Source of the DNA: Chthonomonadaceae bacterium
Lineage (GTDB): Bacteria; Armatimonadota; Chthonomonadetes; Chthonomonadales; Chthonomonadaceae
Length of the DNA stretch: 43,613 nt
Reading direction: 5' to 3'
Assembly (NCBI GenBank): GCA_027459665.1
Contig: DAIDHN010000032.1
Location: 1-43,613, forward strand
In this document: positions 14,290 through 28,766 of the stretch, piece after piece
How positions within the stretch are numbered: position 1 is the stretch's first letter
Layout of the letters: the number at the start of each line of letters is the position of its first letter
Position numbers and translations under genes: made by a program
The notes under the pieces: model-generated
What the model was told of the DNA's origin: nothing
What the model saw: the letters and a program-made list of their open reading frames with translations, nothing else
The model's database searches: none

Positions 14290-15417
14290 TCACCGTTTCT
14301 GGGCGCTGTTCAGCGACACGCCCACTGCGGTTTCCACTGCGTTTACAAAGGTATTTTTGTCACGGATAATAGCCTGTGCAGGCAGGGAGGGAGATACTGT
14401 GGTAAGCCCCTCCATCTTTTTCACGGCGGTGCCAATAGCCATAAACTCTATCATACCGCCTCCCAAATTGTACACATAGGTTTTAATCCCAACCACATCA
14501 TCTGCCCCTATCGCGCTGGCCTCGCCCGCAATGCGTGCAATAGCATTCTCTCTCGCCTCATAAATCAGGGTGGTAAGTTCGCTTATTTCTCCGCGCACCA
14601 GGCTTTTGACCAGTGCCGAGATACCGCCCACTACTCCCAGCGAATAAACCGAAACCCCAAGCAAAAGGCGCTGCGGCATGTATCCCAGGTGAATGAGATT
14701 CCACATTTCCTCATTGGTCAGGTCGCTGGTAACAGGCATGCTGGCACTGGTAGGAGGCAGCATGGGGTGATGAGACGCAGTGCCAATCATCACCATCTCC
14801 TGCATGCCCTGAAACGGTAGAATAGAGGTATTGATGCCCACCACGGCATTGCCGCCCGCCTGTTGTGCCTCATTGGCAATACGCTGAAGCGCAAGGTGCC
14901 GCGTTTTATTAAAAATCTCTGAAAATTCTTTCACCTCGCCCCGTCCAAGCCCGCGCATGGTACCCATCACGCCGCCGCCAACACCAATAGAATAGGCAAC
15001 GTTGCCAAATACAAAGTGAAGCGGATGAAAACCGGCATCTATCTGGCAGTAAAGTTCCTGGCCATCTGCCGAAGAAGAGAAGAAAGCACCTTCCTCGCTG
15101 TGCAGGCAGGAACCTATAGACAAAAACTCTATGTTGCCTGCCTGTTGCACCAAATCGCTGCTCACCCCGGTTATGCCGCATGCACCACGCTTCTGCGCCT
15201 CCTGAATCATCCGCTGAAAACCCTGCACCCGGCCTTCATGAATCAGGCTGGTCACCTGTGTTACCTCACCGCCCATCAGCGTCTTCAAACCGCTGCCCAG
15301 GCTGCCCAGCACACCCATCGAGTAGACGCTGTTTCCAATCACCAGATCGCCTGGCTTCATATTTTTAAGCTGCAGGCAGTATATTTCATTGCCCGAAAGA
15401 CCAGTCATAACAGACAT
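14290..15417 (-). CDS. Protein with three tandem YbjQ/UPF0145 domains
   Basis: A 375-residue protein containing three copies of the YbjQ (DUF74, UPF0145) domain, at about 20-115, 130-235 and 255-350. Each repeat has the same order: a G-N/V-S-V-Y-S-M/L-GV strand, then L-x-x-G-E-V/I-x-E/Q-x-T, a long helix (AREN..., KTRHLALQRI, EGRVQGFQRM), and an A/G-x-x-V/I-x-G-V/I strand ending in M/L-x-IG-T/S. Single-domain YbjQ proteins are ~105 residues and are reported as pentamers, so a three-in-one chain is unusual. I chose ATG 15417, with AGGAGG 7 bases upstream. It lies 70 bases after the pseudoprotease and is likely the last gene of that operon. Function unknown. Confidence 0.8.
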   Translation of the reverse strand: MSVMTGLSGNEIYCLQLKNMKPGDLVIGNSVYSMGVLGSLGSGLKTLMGGEVTQVTSLIHEGRVQGFQRMIQEAQKRGACGITGVSSDLVQQAGNIEFLSIGSCLHSEEGAFFSSSADGQELYCQIDAGFHPLHFVFGNVAYSIGVGGGVMGTMRGLGRGEVKEFSEIFNKTRHLALQRIANEAQQAGGNAVVGINTSILPFQGMQEMVMIGTASHHPMLPPTSASMPVTSDLTNEEMWNLIHLGYMPQRLLLGVSVYSLGVVGGISALVKSLVRGEISELTTLIYEARENAIARIAGEASAIGADDVVGIKTYVYNLGGGMIEFMAIGTAVKKMEGLTTVSPSLPAQAIIRDKNTFVNAVETAVGVSLNSAQKR

Positions 15418-15487
15418 ATTACTGCCTCCTCTTGTCTGGCGCACCCTGCCCATGCCCTGGTGAGCCAGACAGATATTCTGATAAAGT

Positions 15488-19752: not shown

Positions 19753-20750
19753 GCGCACTGCTGGAAGTAGAAGGGTTGAGTACAGGCTTTGGCCGTACCA
19801 GCAACACCATATCTGTGGTGCGCAGTGTGTCTTTTACGATGCAGCGCGGAGAAACAGTTGGTCTGGTAGGCGAATCTGGCTCTGGCAAAAGCATTACCGC
19901 TCTCTCAGTCATGGGCCTGCTGCCGCGGGGAGCGCGCATCACTGCAGGAGATATTTTGCTGAATGGCCAAAGTCTGCCTGCTCTCCCAGAAAAAGACTGG
20001 CAGCAAATACGTGGAAAACGAATAGCCATGGTTTTTCAAGACCCTTTTTCCTCCCTCAACCCAACTCTTACGCTTGGTGAACAGGTGGCAGAAGCGCTGC
20101 GTCTGCATCAGGGAATGAACCGCCGGCAGGCGCAGGAACGCACACAGGAACTTTTTCGCCAGGTCAATCTGCCAAATCCCGAACTAAAAATGCGACAGTA
20201 TCCGCATCAGGCAAGCGGAGGTCAGCGCCAGCGGGTGCTCACTGCCATGGCTTTTGCCTGTGACCCTGAGCTGCTGATAGCCGATGAGCCGACCACTGCG
20301 CTAGACGTTACCGTGCAGGCACAGGTGCTGCAGCTGCTTTTGCAAATGCAGCAGAGAATAAACACAGCCATTCTTCTGATTACTCACGATTTGGGCGTTG
20401 TGGCAGCAGTATGCAGCCGAATACTGGTAATGTATGCAGGCCAGATAGTAGAAAGCGGCCCTGTAAGAGAGGTTCTAACGCATCCTCAGCACCCCTATAC
20501 CCAGGCTTTGCTAGCCTCACTGCCGCCGAGACTGCCAGGGCCGGAGCGCAAACTCAGCTCACTGCCCGGCCAGCCGCCGGCGCCCGGCAAACTGCCTGCC
20601 GGATGTGCATTTGCCCCGCGATGCCCGCTTGCACAGCAAACACCATGCCGGCAGGTAGAGCCGGAACTTACCCAGCATGGCAGCGAAAGGCAGGTGCGGT
20701 GCCATTTTGCAGCCGCACCCCAGGCAATTTTCCACAAGCCGAAAGCGTAA
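19749..20750 (+). CDS. Oligopeptide/dipeptide-type ABC transporter ATP-binding protein (OppD/DppD-like)
   Basis: A 333-residue ATPase: Walker A GESGSGKS (41-48), Q-loop [11 protein letters not shown], signature ASGGQRQRV (the family usually has LSGGMRQRV), Walker [13 protein letters not shown], and H-loop ITHDLG. The C-terminal ~70 residues ([23 protein letters not shown]) carry the Cys-containing extension of OppD/DppD proteins. It should energise import of peptides, nickel or sugars with a second ATPase, two permeases and a binding protein, but none of these is in the window, so it is an orphan. Its ATG overlaps the DUF6807 stop by 4 bases. Confidence 0.9.
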
Positions 20751-20770
20751 AAAGGGCAAGGAGACTGAAC

Positions 20771-21682
20771 GTGCAGAAAATTCTGATCGGAACCAGAGCA
20801 AGCCTGCTGGCACGCACGCAGACAGAGTGGGTGGCACAGCAGCTGCGCAGCATGCATCCGGGGCTAATCACCGAGTTGGTTCCCATTCATACAACAGGTG
20901 ACGAACGGCGCAGCACGCCCCTTGCCCAGGTAGGCGCAAAAGGAATGTTTGTGAAGGAAATAGAAGAGGCGCTGCTGCAGGGCAGAATAGACATGGGGGT
21001 ACACAGCATGAAAGATATGCCTGCCCAAATGCCCCCCGGCCTCGAAATTGCCTGCGTGCCCGTGCGCGAAGACCCCCGCGATGCCCTGCTCACTCTCAAA
21101 AAGCTTACGCTGCAGCAACTGCCCCAGGGCGCGAGAATGGGAACCAGCAGCCCCCGCAGAAAAGCACTGCTGTCAGCCCTGCGGCCAGACTTGTGCTGGA
21201 ATGACCTGCGCGGCAACCTCGATACCCGCCTGCAAAGGCTGCAGGAGGGCAGGTTTGATGCCATCCTTCTGGCCTCTGCAGGTTTGAACAGACTAAAGCT
21301 GGGCCTCGAATTTGCCTGCGCCATCGAACCCGAAGTCTGCCTGCCAGCCCCTGCACAGGGTGCGCTGGCGCTGGAAATATGCAGCGCAAATCAGCAGGTG
21401 CGAGCAATTCTTATGCCCCTGCACCATATGGAAACAGCATGGGAAACCGATGCAGAACGGGCCTTTCTTGCTGCCCTGGGAGCAGGCTGCACGGTACCTG
21501 CCGCTGCTTTGGCACGCTGTACCGGCACAGAGCTGCGCCTGCAGTGCGCTGCGGCCAGCCCCGATGGAAACCGAATACTCAAAATAGAACTCAGTGCATC
21601 TGCACACCAAGCGGCAGCGCTGGGAAAACAGGCAGCGGAAAGACTGCTTGAACAGGGCGCTGCAGCCCTGTTGGAAGGATGA
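20771..21682 (+). CDS. hemC: Hydroxymethylbilane synthase (porphobilinogen deaminase)
   Basis: A 303-residue HemC that condenses four porphobilinogens into hydroxymethylbilane for tetrapyrrole synthesis. Motifs: IGTRASLLARTQT, KGMFVKEIEEALL, the active-site region GVHSMKDMP (catalytic Asp), GTSSPRRKALL, RGNLDTRL, APAQGALALE, and the dipyrromethane-carrying Cys in GAGCTVPAAALA. The GTG at 20771 follows AAGGAG by 7 bases and begins with the family N-terminus; the frame is open upstream into the ABC gene but that part is not HemC. It overlaps nadB by 4 bases. No other heme genes are nearby. Confidence 0.95.
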   Translation: MQKILIGTRASLLARTQTEWVAQQLRSMHPGLITELVPIHTTGDERRSTPLAQVGAKGMFVKEIEEALLQGRIDMGVHSMKDMPAQMPPGLEIACVPVREDPRDALLTLKKLTLQQLPQGARMGTSSPRRKALLSALRPDLCWNDLRGNLDTRLQRLQEGRFDAILLASAGLNRLKLGLEFACAIEPEVCLPAPAQGALALEICSANQQVRAILMPLHHMETAWETDAERAFLAALGAGCTVPAAALARCTGTELRLQCAAASPDGNRILKIELSASAHQAAALGKQAAERLLEQGAAALLEG

Positions 21683-23268
21683 TCGGAAACAACCCTATGA
21701 AGAGAGAAGTAGACTACCTGGTGATTGGCAGCGGGCTGGCAGGGCTTACATTTGCCCTCAATGCCTCAGCTGCCGGACGCGTTGCCCTGCTCACCAAGCG
21801 CTCTCGCTCTGATGCCAGCTCAAGCTGGGCGCAGGGAGGCATCGCCGGCGCACTGGGCGACGACGATTCATTTGCACTGCATCTGCAGGATACCCTGGTG
21901 GCAGGAGCAGGTCTGTGCAATACAGATGCGGTGGAGACGCTTGTGCAGGAAGGCCCGGAGCGCATACGCGAACTAATGGAAATGGGAGCGGGCTTCAACA
22001 CTGAAATAGATGAAGCAGGCAACACAGTGCTGCAGCTGGGGCGAGAGGGAGGCCACAGCAGAAACCGCATTGTACACACAGCAGACTATACAGGCTGGGA
22101 GTGTGAACGCACACTGCTGGAGGCAGTGCGCAATACACCTGAAATTGAAGTGTACGAACATTTTTTCGTTACCGATCTGGCCGTTGGCGGCCCGCAAGGC
22201 AGCCCTGAATGCCTGGGAGCATGGGTGGTAAACGCAGAAACTGGGGAGCAAAGCCTGTTTCGAGCAAAGGCAACCCTGCTGGCAACAGGCGGTAGCGGGC
22301 AGGTTTATCAGCACACCACAAACCCTCAGGTTGCCACTGGCGACGGCGCAGCCATGGCCTGGCGGGCAGGCGCGCTGCTGGCTAATATGGAATTTGTGCA
22401 GTTTCACCCTACCACGCTCTATCATCCCGATGCACGGGCGTTTCTCATCACAGAAGCGCTGCGCGGCGAAGGCGGCATATTGCAGCATGACAGCGGTGAG
22501 CAGTTTATGGAGAAATACCACCCCCTCAAAGAGCTGGCGCCGCGCGATGTAGTGGCAAGAGCCATTGTTCAAGAGATGAAGCGAACCAGCGCAGAATGCC
22601 TTTACCTCAACGTATCCCACCTGCCTTCCGACCTGCTGCACAGCCACTTTCCTACAGTCACCGAGCGCTGCCTCTCGGTAGGAATCGACATTACCCGGCA
22701 GCCCATCCCCATTGTTCCTGCTCAGCATTACCAGTGCGGCGGCGTGGTAACCGATCTCCACGGCGTTACCTCAATACCCCGGCTTTACGCGGCAGGCGAG
22801 GTAGCCTGTACAGGCGTACACGGCGCCAACCGCCTCGCATCAAACTCTCTGCTCGAAGCAATGGTGTTTGGCAGGCGTGCAGCTCTTCATGCACTGCAGC
22901 ATGCCCCTACCTATTCATCTGAGCAGCCTGTGCCGCTGCAAAAAACTTCTCCCGAAACCGACTCGGCCCAGCTTGCCTCCCTGTGGAAACAGGTGCGCTC
23001 ACTCATGCAGCGCAATGCAGGCATAGTGCGCACCAGCGCAGAAATGCAGAATGCTCTCGGCAAAATAGAAAGCATTCGCGAAAGCATCTGCCCGACTGTG
23101 GCGCACATGGAGGCTGTAGAGGCTGTGAACGCCATTCAGGTCGCCTCGCTTGTGCTGCAAAGCGCACTGATGAGGAAGGAGAGCCGAGGGCTGCATTATA
23201 CGCTCGACTACCCGAAATCTGTAGAGAGCGAGAGGCACGACACCCTGATTTACCGATCTGCTTTTTAG
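21679..23268 (+). CDS. nadB: L-aspartate oxidase
   Basis: NadB oxidises L-aspartate to iminoaspartate, the first step of de novo NAD synthesis. The 529-residue flavoprotein has the FAD-binding GSGLAGLTFAL motif, SSWAQGGIAGALGDDDS, GGHSRNRIVHTADYTG, TGGSGQVYQHTTNP, FVQFHPTTLYHP, ALRGEGG and GVHGANRLASNSLLEA, all diagnostic. The first ATG (21679) overlaps the hemC stop; the ATG at 21697 (KREVDYLVIG) is an alternative start. nadA and nadC are not in the window, so NAD genes are dispersed. Confidence 0.95.
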   Translation: MIGNNPMKREVDYLVIGSGLAGLTFALNASAAGRVALLTKRSRSDASSSWAQGGIAGALGDDDSFALHLQDTLVAGAGLCNTDAVETLVQEGPERIRELMEMGAGFNTEIDEAGNTVLQLGREGGHSRNRIVHTADYTGWECERTLLEAVRNTPEIEVYEHFFVTDLAVGGPQGSPECLGAWVVNAETGEQSLFRAKATLLATGGSGQVYQHTTNPQVATGDGAAMAWRAGALLANMEFVQFHPTTLYHPDARAFLITEALRGEGGILQHDSGEQFMEKYHPLKELAPRDVVARAIVQEMKRTSAECLYLNVSHLPSDLLHSHFPTVTERCLSVGIDITRQPIPIVPAQHYQCGGVVTDLHGVTSIPRLYAAGEVACTGVHGANRLASNSLLEAMVFGRRAALHALQHAPTYSSEQPVPLQKTSPETDSAQLASLWKQVRSLMQRNAGIVRTSAEMQNALGKIESIRESICPTVAHMEAVEAVNAIQVASLVLQSALMRKESRGLHYTLDYPKSVESERHDTLIYRSAF

Positions 23269-23283
23269 TAAAGGAGAGCGCTC

Positions 23284-24072
23284 ATGAGCAGTGATGCTCT
23301 GCTTGTACAATTACAGGGCAGCCTGTGTACTATTGCACTCAACCGCCCCGAACGCAGAAATGCGCTGGATGAAACGCTTATAGAGGCGCTCACTAATGCA
23401 CTGCACCAGGCAGCAGCCATGCCCGAAGTACGCATTGTAGCGCTGAGGGGAATAGGCAGTACTTTCTGTGCCGGGGCAGACTTGGCTGCAATGGCGCGTG
23501 CGGCAGATGCCCCGCTGGAGGAAAACCTGCAGGATGCCCGAAAACTGCAGCAGCTGTTTTATGCTCTCGACACACTTCCCTGTATTACTGTGGCGCTGGC
23601 GCAGGGAGCTGCAATAGGCGGAGGGGCCGGCCTGCTGGCGGCATGCGATGTTGCCATTGCATCGCCCGAAACCTTCTTCGCCTTCAGCGAGGTGCGCCTG
23701 GGTCTTCTTCCTGCAGTCATATCGCCCTACGTAGTACGCAAAATCGGGATGGGTACAGCCAGAACGCTTTTTGTTACTGGCAAACGCTTTCAGGCAGACG
23801 CAGCGCTGCGCATGGGCCTGATACAGCATATTGCGCAAAATCTGGATTCCGCACTGGATGATGAAGTTAAAAACGCTCTCAAAGTCAGCCCGCAGGCGGT
23901 AAAAGCCGTAAAAGAGCTGATGCGTATGCTGCCCTCTTTTTCTGCCGAAGAAACAGCAGAAGCAACCGCGCAAGCCATTGCGAGGGCACGCGCTTCAGAA
24001 GAGGGGCTTGAGGGAGTGCGCGCTTTTCTTCAAGGCCGCTCTCCTTCCTATTTCAGAGAGGAAACACCGTGA
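23284..24072 (+). CDS. Enoyl-CoA hydratase/isomerase, probable methylglutaconyl-CoA hydratase
   Basis: A 262-residue crotonase-fold enzyme: substrate loop RPERRNALD, oxyanion hole FCAGADLAAM, and GAAIGGGAGLLAACDVAIA. FAFSEVRLGLLPAVISPYV, with Pro-Ala-Val-Ile, is characteristic of methylglutaconyl-CoA hydratase (LiuC/AUH) rather than fatty-acid hydratases. Hydrating 3-methylglutaconyl-CoA gives HMG-CoA, the substrate of the lyase three genes downstream, and the carboxylase between them supplies 3-methylglutaconyl-CoA. AAGGAG lies 7 bases before ATG. It ends in a GTGA overlap with the carboxylase gene. Confidence 0.88.
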   Translation: MSSDALLVQLQGSLCTIALNRPERRNALDETLIEALTNALHQAAAMPEVRIVALRGIGSTFCAGADLAAMARAADAPLEENLQDARKLQQLFYALDTLPCITVALAQGAAIGGGAGLLAACDVAIASPETFFAFSEVRLGLLPAVISPYVVRKIGMGTARTLFVTGKRFQADAALRMGLIQHIAQNLDSALDDEVKNALKVSPQAVKAVKELMRMLPSFSAEETAEATAQAIARARASEEGLEGVRAFLQGRSPSYFREETP

Positions 24073-25589
24073 CTACCCGCATACGGCGCGTTCTGATTGC
24101 AAACAGAGGAGAAATTGCTGTTCGCATTGCAAAAGCATGCAGAGAAAGAGCAGTTGTTCCGCTGCATGTTTTTTCAGAAGCAGATCGAAATGCGCTGCAT
24201 GTACAGCAGGCGGAAACAGCCTGCTGCATAGGAGGTGCGCCTGCGGCTGAAAGCTACCTGAATGCTGCTGCCCTGCTCAATGCTGCAAAACAAATGAACG
24301 CAGATGCTGTGCATCCGGGATACGGTTTTCTTTCTGAAAACTCGCACTTTGCCCGATTATGCCAGGAGGCAGGGCTGACATGGATTGGGCCATCGCCGGA
24401 AACGATGGAGCAGCTGGGAGACAAGGCTAGAGCGCGCAAAATGCTTGCTCCCCTGGGAGTGCCGGTCCCTCCTGGCTTTGCTGAAGAAAATCCGAGCCTC
24501 GAAGAGCTGCAAAAGGCAGCAGAAAACCTGGGTGCGCCGCTGCTCATCAAGGCAGCTGCAGGCGGGGGCGGACGCGGCATGCGCGTAGTAACAGACCTTA
24601 AAGACCTGGAAGAAGCACTGCACAATGCCAAAACAGAAGCTAAAGCCGCCTTTGGAGACGACAGGGTATTGCTGGAACGCTTTCTGCAGCGCCCGCGCCA
24701 TATTGAGATACAAATTTTTGGCGATGCAGCAGGACGCGTTATCGCCCTCGGAGAAAGGGAATGTTCGCTGCAGCGCAGGCACCAGAAAATTGTGGAAGAA
24801 AGCCCCTCCCCTGCAGTATCACCCGAACTGCGGCAAAAAATGAGTGAAACAGCCTGTCTTATCGGCCGTGCCGCACAATACCAGAATGCCGGCACAGTAG
24901 AATTCTTGCTTGAATGCAAACCCGGTACAGAACCCGCCTACTACTTTCTTGAAGTAAACACACGCCTGCAGGTAGAACACCCGGTAACCGAGCTGGTAAC
25001 AGGGCTAGACCTGGTGCATTTGCAGTTGGATATAGCAGAAGGAGCAAGCCTGCCCGCACATTTGCCCGACTGTTTTGTGCCTAATGGCCACGCCCTGGAG
25101 GTGCGCTTGTATGCAGAAGACCCGGAACATGCATTTCTGCCTTCTGTAGGAAAACTTGAATGCTGTCATATGCCAGTCTCCCCTGGCATCAGGATAGACA
25201 GCGGGGTAGCAGCCGGCTCGGAAATATCGCCCTGGTACGACCCCCAAATGGCAAAAATCATTGCATACGCTCCAAACCGTTCGCTGGCAGTACGCCGCAT
25301 GCTCCAGGCACTGTGTGAGACGCAGGTTGCAGGGGTGGCTACCAATCAGGCTTTTCTGCTCGACCTGCTCGCTCACCCTGAGTTTGAAGCAGGAAATCTT
25401 TCCATTCACTTTCTCAACGACCATTTCCCCCGTTGGAGCGCAGCAGCAGTTCCGCCGGAGGGTGCGCTTCTTGCACTGGCTGCTGTTTTGCAGAAACACA
25501 GTGCCGTACCGGGTGCAGCACAGCCGGCAGAACAGCAGCAAAACCCATGGTTGTATTCTGAAAACTGGTGCAATGTGAGGATAAACTGA
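24069..25589 (+). CDS. Biotin carboxylase part of an acyl-CoA (likely methylcrotonyl-CoA) carboxylase
   Basis: A 506-residue biotin carboxylase that carboxylates biotin with ATP and bicarbonate. RRVLIANRGEIAVRI at the start, HPGYGFLSEN, the ATP-grasp loop AAAGGGGRGMRVV, RHIEIQIFGD, ECSLQRRHQKIVEESPSP and EVNTRLQVEHPVTE are all present. The protein continues past the BC domain to ENWCNVRIN, where fused MccA proteins pass into a BT domain. A TGA (25587-25589) ends it, one codon before the ATG of the biotinyl gene, which is in the same frame. Context with methylglutaconyl-CoA hydratase and HMG-CoA lyase points to leucine breakdown. The carboxyltransferase subunit is not in the window. Confidence 0.92.
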   Translation: MTTRIRRVLIANRGEIAVRIAKACRERAVVPLHVFSEADRNALHVQQAETACCIGGAPAAESYLNAAALLNAAKQMNADAVHPGYGFLSENSHFARLCQEAGLTWIGPSPETMEQLGDKARARKMLAPLGVPVPPGFAEENPSLEELQKAAENLGAPLLIKAAAGGGGRGMRVVTDLKDLEEALHNAKTEAKAAFGDDRVLLERFLQRPRHIEIQIFGDAAGRVIALGERECSLQRRHQKIVEESPSPAVSPELRQKMSETACLIGRAAQYQNAGTVEFLLECKPGTEPAYYFLEVNTRLQVEHPVTELVTGLDLVHLQLDIAEGASLPAHLPDCFVPNGHALEVRLYAEDPEHAFLPSVGKLECCHMPVSPGIRIDSGVAAGSEISPWYDPQMAKIIAYAPNRSLAVRRMLQALCETQVAGVATNQAFLLDLLAHPEFEAGNLSIHFLNDHFPRWSAAAVPPEGALLALAAVLQKHSAVPGAAQPAEQQQNPWLYSENWCNVRIN

Positions 25590-25592
25590 AAC

Positions 25593-26105
25593 ATGAAAGC
25601 AACTTTTCGGTGCAATGAAGAACTGTTTTCACTTTCTGCCCTCACCCTGCCCCAGGGCATTCAGATAACCCTTGCAGAAGAAAAAACTTTTACTGTTCAG
25701 TTACACAGCCGCGGCCAGGGTATGTATCTGCTGGAATGGCACAATGAAGACGGCATTGTGCGCCACGCTTCTGCTGCTGCAATGAAATGCGCCGGTGGAA
25801 CAGTGCAAATCTGTTTTGAAGGCAGAAACTATCTGTTTGAACTGGAACAGGGTTCAAAAAAACCGGAGACGGTATCGGGCAGCCTCACCGCCCCCATGAC
25901 AGGGGTGGTTTCTCAAATACTGGCTGCAGAAGGAAGTACTGCCCAGCGTGGAGATGCCCTGCTTACCCTGGAAGCAATGAAGGTGGTAGCTCCCATTGAA
26001 GCGCCCTTCACAGGCGTTATTCGCAGCATTATGGTGAAACAGGGAGAGCAGGTGCAGCAGGGGTGTTTGCTGGTGGAAATGGAGGCGGAAAATGACGGCG
26101 GGTAA
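25593..26105 (+). CDS. Biotin carboxyl carrier subunit (BT domain plus biotinyl domain)
   Basis: A 170-residue protein: an N-terminal beta-barrel-like region (~1-88), as in the BT linker domain of MccA, and a biotinyl/lipoyl domain (~95-165). The biotinylated Lys is in LEAMKVVAPI; the usual motif is AMKM, here with Val after Lys, which BirA generally tolerates. PMTGVV and EAPFTGVIRSIMV flank it. It lies in frame with the upstream carboxylase, separated by TGA and one codon. A weak GAGGA site 11-12 bases upstream could allow separate initiation. It overlaps the lyase gene by 14 bases. Confidence 0.88.
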   Translation: MKATFRCNEELFSLSALTLPQGIQITLAEEKTFTVQLHSRGQGMYLLEWHNEDGIVRHASAAAMKCAGGTVQICFEGRNYLFELEQGSKKPETVSGSLTAPMTGVVSQILAAEGSTAQRGDALLTLEAMKVVAPIEAPFTGVIRSIMVKQGEQVQQGCLLVEMEAENDGG

Positions 26106-26994
26106 ACTTGAATCAGTACGTGTGGTTGAGGTTGGACCGCGTGACGGGCTGCAAAACGAAAAAACCACGCTTTCGGTAGCAGCACGCGTGGCACTGGTAG
26201 GCATGCTGGCCCAGGCAGGTCTTTCTGAAATAGAGGTGGGAGCTTTTGTCCGCCCCGATCGCGTACCGCAGATGGCGCATACCGATTCGGTGCTTTCTCT
26301 GCTGCCTCAGCGGCCAGGTGTGCGCTATACGGTTCTGACACCCAACCTGAAAGGGCTGGACGAAGCTACAAAGGCGGGAGCAAATTCGGTTGCATTTTTT
26401 GCCAGCGCATCAGACACCTTTTCCAGGCGCAACACAGGCATGAGCCTCGCCGATTCGCTCAAACTGTACAGTAAACTGATTCCCGAAGCACTGCACCGTG
26501 AAATGCGGGTGCGCGCCTACATCTCTACTGCATGGGCATGCCCGTTTGAAGGAGAAATCTCTGTTGAACAGAGCGCCGGTACTGCATTAGCCCTGTATGA
26601 GGCAGGGGCGGAAGAGGTTGTGCCCTCAGATACCATTGGTCACGCGCAGCCGCATCAGGTTGCAGCGCTTCTGCAGCACATGGCGCAGCACATTCCTGCA
26701 GCGCAGACTGCCTGCCACTTTCATGACACCCAGGGCGGCGCCCTCGAAAACGTGCGTACTGCACTTCGCTGCGGCATACGAGTATTCGACAGTTCCTGCG
26801 GAGGCACTGGCGGATGTCCATATGCACCCGGAGCACCTGGCAATCTGGCCACAGAAAACCTGCTCACTCTTCTGAAAGAAGAGGGCTTTGAAACCGGCGT
26901 GCGGCTCGACCGTGTTGCCGCAGCAGTACGTTTTCTGCGCAGCAGACTTCACAGCACACAGAAAGCAGGAAACGCAGGCGCAGCAGAAGAATAA
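26092..26994 (+). CDS. Hydroxymethylglutaryl-CoA lyase
   Basis: A 300-residue HMGL-like TIM barrel lyase cleaving HMG-CoA to acetyl-CoA and acetoacetate. VGPRDGLQNEK at the N-terminus (catalytic Arg, Asp), CHFHDTQG (metal His residues) and the Cys-loop GGTGGCPYAPGAPGN are the signature motifs. The last step of leucine catabolism and its placement after the carboxylase genes agree. Start overlaps the carrier gene by 14 bases. Confidence 0.93.
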   Translation: MTAGKLESVRVVEVGPRDGLQNEKTTLSVAARVALVGMLAQAGLSEIEVGAFVRPDRVPQMAHTDSVLSLLPQRPGVRYTVLTPNLKGLDEATKAGANSVAFFASASDTFSRRNTGMSLADSLKLYSKLIPEALHREMRVRAYISTAWACPFEGEISVEQSAGTALALYEAGAEEVVPSDTIGHAQPHQVAALLQHMAQHIPAAQTACHFHDTQGGALENVRTALRCGIRVFDSSCGGTGGCPYAPGAPGNLATENLLTLLKEEGFETGVRLDRVAAAVRFLRSRLHSTQKAGNAGAAEE

Positions 26995-28226: not shown

Positions 28227-28273
28227 AAACAGAGTATGCTGCTGTACTTTATTTTGTACAAATACCTCTGTTT
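28227..28273 (+). terminator. Long imperfect hairpin upstream of the OB-fold gene
   Basis: AAACAGAG-TAT (28227-28237) pairs with ATACCTCTGTTT (28262-28273), and TGTAC (28243-28247) with GTACA (28256-28260) inside. It lies between the oxidoreductase stop and the next ribosome-binding site, and ends in TTT. It may be a terminator or a leader structure. Confidence 0.45.
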
Positions 28274-28301
28274 GAATATCTGGCTGCATAAGGAGCTTGC
28301 A

Positions 28302-28766
28302 ATGCATGGTAAAACAGCTGTCTGGCTGATACTTACTGCTGTTGTTTCAGCTGCCTCGGCTGCCCCGCGAAGCCAACTGAAAAAAAAGGCAGTTTACGGC
28401 ACTATTTCGTCTTCCAGTTCTGCCGTGGCACGCGCACTGCCTGCCAGCGCAATTACCGAAGCGAAAAAACTGACTGGCAAGCCTGGCGCATTTTTGGGGG
28501 TGGTAACAGAAGTTGATCTCTGTCAGAAAACCTGCAGAATGATCTATATCAACTTTTCCACCCCCTGGAGCAAAAGCATCAGTGCAGATATACCTGCAAG
28601 TGCATATGGCAAATTTCCCAATGTGCATCAGCTGCTGCATCGCAGAGTGCTGGTGACTGGCAGGTTCATTCTTTACGAGCGCAGGCACCCTGAAATACTG
28701 GTTTCATCGCCAGCGCAAATTCGTATCATACAAAACGCCCCTCGTGCCGGTTTAAAAGCAAAATAA
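28302..28766 (+). CDS. Secreted OB-fold protein of unknown function
   Basis: A 154-residue protein with a signal peptide (MHGKTAVWLILTAVVSAASAA), a Ser/Ala-rich linker, and an OB-fold-like domain (~60-145): LGVVTEVDL, then MIYINFSTPWSK, HRRVLVTGRFILYERRHPEILVSSPAQI. This pattern, with a 'V.G.I..Y...PEI.V..P.QI' ending, is seen in small secreted OB domains attached to nucleases and helix-hairpin-helix proteins. A binding role for nucleic acid or oligosaccharide is possible but unproven. AAGGAG precedes ATG 28302; the earlier ATG at 28236 lies in the hairpin and has no ribosome-binding site. Confidence 0.7.
   Translation: MHGKTAVWLILTAVVSAASAAPRSQLKKKAVYGTISSSSSAVARALPASAITEAKKLTGKPGAFLGVVTEVDLCQKTCRMIYINFSTPWSKSISADIPASAYGKFPNVHQLLHRRVLVTGRFILYERRHPEILVSSPAQIRIIQNAPRAGLKAK

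Follow-up and report, generated by a model that had tools for sequence, protein, structure and literature searches.

A very probably native division of the methylcrotonyl-CoA carboxylase alpha subunit in a Chthonomonadaceae bacterium and its relatives in the Armatimonadota

A biotin carboxylase gene followed by a biotinyl gene

A Chthonomonadaceae bacterium very probably carries a native split MccA, in which the two parts of the methylcrotonyl-CoA carboxylase (MCC) alpha chain are encoded by separate genes, the BT domain is most likely rebuilt from both chains, and an MCC-type carboxyltransferase (CT) for leucine breakdown is encoded elsewhere. Judged by comparison with related sequences, the TGA at 25587-25589 is the native end of the biotin carboxylase (BC) gene. 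The relevant features of the window, by which we mean the whole 43,613-nt stretch of DNA analysed, are as follows.

23284..24072, + strand: enoyl-CoA hydratase/isomerase family gene, probable methylglutaconyl-CoA hydratase (Pfam ECH_1, 3.4e-44)
24069..25589, + strand: standalone BC, 506 aa, GTG start, ending at a TGA read as native
25458..25502, + strand: predicted C-terminal helix (BC residues 464-478), putative counterpart of the BT-domain central helix (AlphaFold2 model of the joined chain; BT anatomy from PMC4673880)
25548..25568, + strand: putative hook aromatics, BC Trp494 and Trp500 (Trp500 pairs with the hook Trp of fused MCC in alignments)
25577..25581, + strand: GAGGA, 11 nt ahead of the biotinyl ATG and a possible ribosome-binding site for that gene
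25587..25589, + strand: TGA terminating the BC gene, at position 507 when the chains are joined
25593..26105, + strand: biotinyl subunit, ATG start, 170 aa, BT beta-barrel and BCCP domain
25593..25844, + strand: BT barrel, eight predicted strands within joined residues 508-592 (AlphaFold2 model)
25980..25982, + strand: codon of the biotinylation lysine in EAMKV, K638 of the joined chain, invariant in the alignments
26092..26994, + strand: hydroxymethylglutaryl-CoA (HMG-CoA) lyase gene (NCBIfam NF004283, 345.6 bits against a cut-off of 246; Pfam HMGL-like)

As the first-pass annotation had described, the BC and biotinyl reading frames share a common frame with the single codon AAC between them, and its remark on a GAGGA ahead of the biotinyl ATG was correct as to sequence; GGATCACCTCCTTTCT occurs once in the genome as an exact match, and this site was assumed to be the 16S 3' end. 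The joined chain of 676 residues that it gave holds as the sum of the two proteins (506 + 170), but reading through the stop gives 678 codons, the TGA included. Pfam recognises Biotin_carb_N, CPSase_L_D2 and Biotin_carb_C in the first protein, and Biotin_lipoyl (7.2e-17) and no CT domain in the biotinyl protein, while no NCBIfam model was matched above its cut-off by either. The TGA of the crotonase-family gene overlaps the GTG start of the BC gene as GTGA, and the last 14 nt of the biotinyl gene are shared with the HMG-CoA lyase gene.

The cluster at 20750-26994 (+), which follows a porphobilinogen deaminase-like ORF and a FAD_binding_2 protein, has hardly any gaps. The FAD_binding_2 protein, upstream of the hydratase, resembles an L-aspartate oxidase by inspection, and with only 15 nt before the hydratase gene, unrelated pathways may share a common transcript. 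Elsewhere in the window, a 386-aa protein (14290-15453, -) contains three YbjQ-type stretches, and a 176-aa ORF (28236-28766, +) has no match in Pfam or PHROGs at E 0.001.

Carboxyltransferase partner and substrate

The most likely CT partner of the pair, as judged from sequence, is a 534-aa protein encoded at G000:C15:2641-4245 (-), which scores 732-738 bits against MCC beta. The genome of the window has no other full-length CT match; the two further matches are a pair on contig C21 that we take to be AccA/AccD-like. MCC-type CTs are marked by a Phe in the active-site region and by an N-terminal helix segment, according to PMC4673880. The C15 protein has a Phe that aligns with human MCC beta Phe191 (a position counted by hand), and its N-terminal segment aligns with that of MCC beta by sequence. 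Together with the neighbouring genes, the CT makes an MCC-type substrate, and hence a role in leucine (isovaleryl-CoA) breakdown, most likely.

The leading alternative is a split acyl-CoA carboxylase acting on another substrate, be it geranyl-CoA, propionyl-CoA or several. The best PDB match of the C15 CT, 9tps (755 bits), was deposited as a propionyl-CoA carboxylase (PCC) beta subunit and speaks for this reading; the Phe at the MCC-specific site, the N-terminal segment aligned with MCC beta, and the HMG-CoA lyase and hydratase genes adjoining the pair speak against it, and we regard it as improbable. An isovaleryl-CoA dehydrogenase was not identified in the genome, whose two acyl-CoA dehydrogenase matches sit in reading frames of unusual length (652 and 606 aa).

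Orthologues across the Armatimonadota

We searched 291 Armatimonadota genomes and found BC matches in 82 of them at E 1e-132, with none in the other 209 at that threshold. We read the loci whose BC match extended beyond residue 460 or so, and G179 in addition; these, together with G036 and the window, make up a set of 62 MCC-type BCs, and six AccC-type loci that were also read (G018, G033, G190, G193, G212 and G290) were excluded from it. This choice of loci would miss BCs lacking a tail, so that a count of 62/62 with a tail is conditional on it, while the count of 62/62 unfused is unaffected.

In a first set of 41 genomes the nearest BCs end where the window BC ends, and across the full set the BC gene ends in a stop at the equivalent place in all 62 MCC-type loci (window included), with no continuation into a biotinyl domain in any of the 62 loci read. 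The stop codon itself varies (TGA in 29, TAG in 22, TAA in 11). Six Armatimonadota pairs are directly adjacent, with the biotinyl start at +3 (window), +9 (G002), +19 (G008), -8 (G028), -11 (G030) and -4 (G048), taking the first base beyond the BC stop as zero. Their relative frames are 0, 0, 1, 1, 1 and 2, only two of the six being in frame. Since all three frames occur among adjacent pairs, the common frame of the window is a one-in-three outcome and not the trace of a fused gene.

In ten other genomes (G083, G086, G087, G094, G132, G144, G157, G160, G161 and G170) the best biotinyl match lies on the same contig as the BC but 69 kb to 2.1 Mb away, the distance being 69 kb in G144 and 130 kb in G087, with positions of 5,227 kb against 3,109 kb in G086 and 395.8 kb against 2,521 kb in G170. 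The two genes lie on separate contigs in G010. Biotinyl matches of family f22 span mainly the second half of the profile and those of f23 the whole of it, making the partner assignment less sure for f22. The start Met of the window biotinyl protein aligns with those of its relatives, whose starts were chosen by hand. In G010, a 4HBT thioesterase-family gene (L032:872-1495, +) lies just 5' of the biotinyl gene, and in G047 (L092) a similar frame, seen by eye, directly follows the BC stop, between the BC and biotinyl genes.

Fused chains and the tree

A profile of fused chains (A3), in which the joined window chain was added to 35 fused ones, recovered a single stop-free full-length chain among the 291 Armatimonadota genomes at E 1e-205. 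This chain, in G137, is a PCC alpha (3n6r, 771.8 bits, against 531.3 for MCC), and the same genome carries a split BC too; no fused MCC alpha was found among the 291 genomes with this profile and threshold. In no row but that of the window does the fused profile reach its end across a stop. The G137 chain (C143:1463-3526, -; L256), as the lone fused PCC alpha at this threshold, may reflect a transfer or a contaminant contig.

Outside the phylum, we considered the best 80 of 440 named loci. Fused chains account for 42 of these best 80, many with PW....DGWR where the window BC ends, and split loci, again among the best 80 of 440, are L163, L165 and L166, titled Eremiobacterota, and L168, titled 'bacterium'. 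In all four the BC ends in ...ELGxWR.. and its stop shares bases with the start of the biotinyl gene (ATGA or GTGA), which is in frame +2; downstream, L163, L165 and L168 have an HMG-CoA lyase-like frame, whereas the sequence of L166 stops too early to reveal one. A quick tree of 41 Armatimonadota rows (14 of them from family f22) and 66 of the 80 named loci, leaving out 13 Pelagibacteraceae and L213, places the window BC within a starred clade of 34 Armatimonadota rows, every one of which is split. On this unrooted tree, the fused and separate states require at least two changes.

The first-pass annotation had listed four options for the in-frame TGA, and the orthologues, split at the same place, support the one that it called a real two-subunit enzyme. 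It had also named the orthologue comparison in advance as the evidence that could tell against a broken gene, and this comparison found separate, mostly out-of-frame genes. A recent nonsense mutation dividing a fused mccA, leaving it broken or half-working, is suggested by two in-frame ORFs one codon apart whose joined chain can be aligned with fused MccA along its whole length. We consider it very unlikely, because the split, at this very position, is shared by all relatives in the clade, which end alike with differing stop codons, their partner genes lying mostly out of frame or elsewhere, because a fused MCC alpha is absent from the 291 genomes at E 1e-205, and because both window ORFs are intact, with the biotinyl start aligned as described.

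Readthrough of the TGA by a near-cognate tRNA or as selenocysteine, yielding some fused enzyme alongside the short BC, was another of the options and is equally unlikely. The frames agree, a hairpin lies 3' of the TGA, and the genome has a tRNA-Sec match above the Rfam cut-off (71.6 bits). Against this, the other in-frame relative, G002, has TAA as its BC stop, stop codons vary, and the remaining relatives have an out-of-frame or unlinked partner; where the partner genes are unlinked, readthrough cannot make the enzymes of those relatives. The hairpin is unremarkable (z -1.46, equalled by 16 of 200 shuffles) and fused kin have no Cys at the TGA column of the alignment, read by eye; on these two grounds a selenocysteine or readthrough codon was rejected. 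The tRNA-Sec match itself (G000:C3:49185-49279, -; locus L240) indicates that the genome may make selenoproteins elsewhere. The least probable of the listed options, a sequencing or assembly error that created the TGA in a fused gene, is opposed by the 62/62 relatives read (window included) that end the BC gene at this position, with various stop codons, and by an ATG and GAGGA placed as a second gene requires.

Position of the break within the BT domain

Predicted structure suggests that the break lies within the BT (subunit-linking) domain, with the central helix and a hook aromatic left on the BC and the first barrel strand opening the biotinyl chain. In phmmer alignments, P. aeruginosa MCC alpha spans the break, the window BC being aligned to residue 498 (DGWR) and the biotinyl protein to 540-652. 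The best PDB matches of the window BC are 9tps (459.6 bits) and 3u9s (458.5 bits), the PCC 6ybp scoring lower (436.4 bits). Human residue 543 (an R there, counted by hand) stands opposite the hook Trp of fused MCC in the alignment, as does window W500 through profile A3.

An AlphaFold2 model of the joined chain, with the TGA read as Trp and an alignment of 36 rows, reached pLDDT 87.3 and pTM 0.85. It contains a helix (464-478), a loop (480-505), eight strands within 508-592 and the BCCP domain thereafter, with the hook loop 480-505 below pLDDT 50; modelled without the BC, the barrel reaches a pLDDT of only about 55-75. The joined model matches P. aeruginosa MCC 3u9t (Z 53.0, rmsd 4.6, 532 residues, model 2-600) and human MCC 8j7d (Z 51.5, rmsd 5.3, 633 residues). 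Ranks 1-3 of the structure search are plain BCs (Z 53), tied with MCC, and the support for BT comes mainly from the ranges matched by 3u9t and 8j7d. The biotinyl model by itself gives low TM-scores (0.38-0.41, query-normalised), the matches listed being all biotin-dependent carboxylases. The BT features (helix 464-478, W500 and strands 508-592) are thus predicted across two chains, the hook at low confidence.

The tail was then counted in 66 standalone BCs, the 62 from Armatimonadota and the four from outside the phylum. W, F or Y occupies position 500 in 66/66, position 501 is R in 63 (the window has Cys), and position 494 is W in 61 and F in the remaining five; the chain ends 2-15 residues past position 500 in all 66. 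The persistence of this BC tail while the barrel sits on the other chain fits a docking role.

Comparison with known carboxylases

A literature search on methylcrotonyl-CoA carboxylase in Armatimonadota/Armatimonadetes found none, with subscription journals outside its scope, which is weak evidence of novelty. Fused MCC alpha (P. aeruginosa 3u9s/3u9t, human 8j4z) has BC, BT and BCCP in the same order as the window, and the joined chain aligns with it over its full length; it is, however, one polypeptide, whereas the window has two genes, divided after the BT hook and ahead of the first barrel strand. AccB/AccC of acetyl-CoA carboxylase are, like the window pair, separate BC and BCCP genes, but the AccC-type BCs of Armatimonadota (the six read and that of the window genome itself) end near residue 450 without the helix and hook, whereas the window BC has this tail. 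The B. subtilis yngH/yngHB type, of which we take YngH to be the BC, also has a separate biotin carrier (BLAP) beside carboxylase genes. In PMC4016012, these adjoining genes may form an MCC and BLAP is handled as an 8.7 kDa tagged protein. At that size BLAP is too small for a barrel, which the 170-aa biotinyl protein of the window is predicted to have.

In the two-subunit pyruvate carboxylase of M. flagellatus, the C-terminal helix of the BC lies inside the barrel of other chains, and a stop placed before this helix abolishes the holoenzyme, according to PMC5059739. This enzyme offers, by analogy, a precedent for a window BC helix in the barrel of another chain. The pyruvate carboxylase barrel is formed from two CT-BCCP chains, whereas the window barrel is predicted within one BT-BCCP chain, and the window BC retains a hook too, unlike the pyruvate carboxylase. 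Its BCCP stands behind a pyruvate-type CT, whereas the window biotinyl protein has no CT domain.

Proposed assembly and significance

In the proposed native split MccA, the first gene would yield a BC with a C-terminal helix and hook, and the second a biotin carrier opening with a BT beta-barrel. Ribosomes would terminate at the TGA and start the biotinyl gene at the ATG at 25593, probably by termination-coupled re-initiation with help from the GAGGA. The BC would restore a BT domain in trans by placing its C-terminal helix in the barrel of the other chain, and the hook would dock on the CT. Biotin would then move from the BC to the MCC-type CT encoded at G000:C15, and with the flanking hydratase and HMG-CoA lyase the enzyme would serve leucine (isovaleryl-CoA) breakdown. 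For the Armatimonadota and some Eremiobacterota at large, we lean, with some reserve, towards a three-protein MCC with a divided BT domain, the BC contributing the helix and hook, the other chain the barrel and biotin, and the helix being threaded in trans.

The in-frame TGA is to be taken as a gene boundary, and annotators are warned not to 'repair' it. If the trans reading is true, a break exactly at the joint between hook and barrel would make these enzymes a natural test of whether BT modules are separable and of the ways in which carboxylase genes divide or merge. Should a BT domain in trans be confirmed, this would be the second type of enzyme, after the two-subunit pyruvate carboxylase, in which a BT-like domain is divided; the C-terminal helix together with [WF]-x5-[WFY]-R would be a sequence mark by which the BCs of split MCC could be distinguished from AccC, and one more state would enter the history of fusion and fission among biotin carboxylases.
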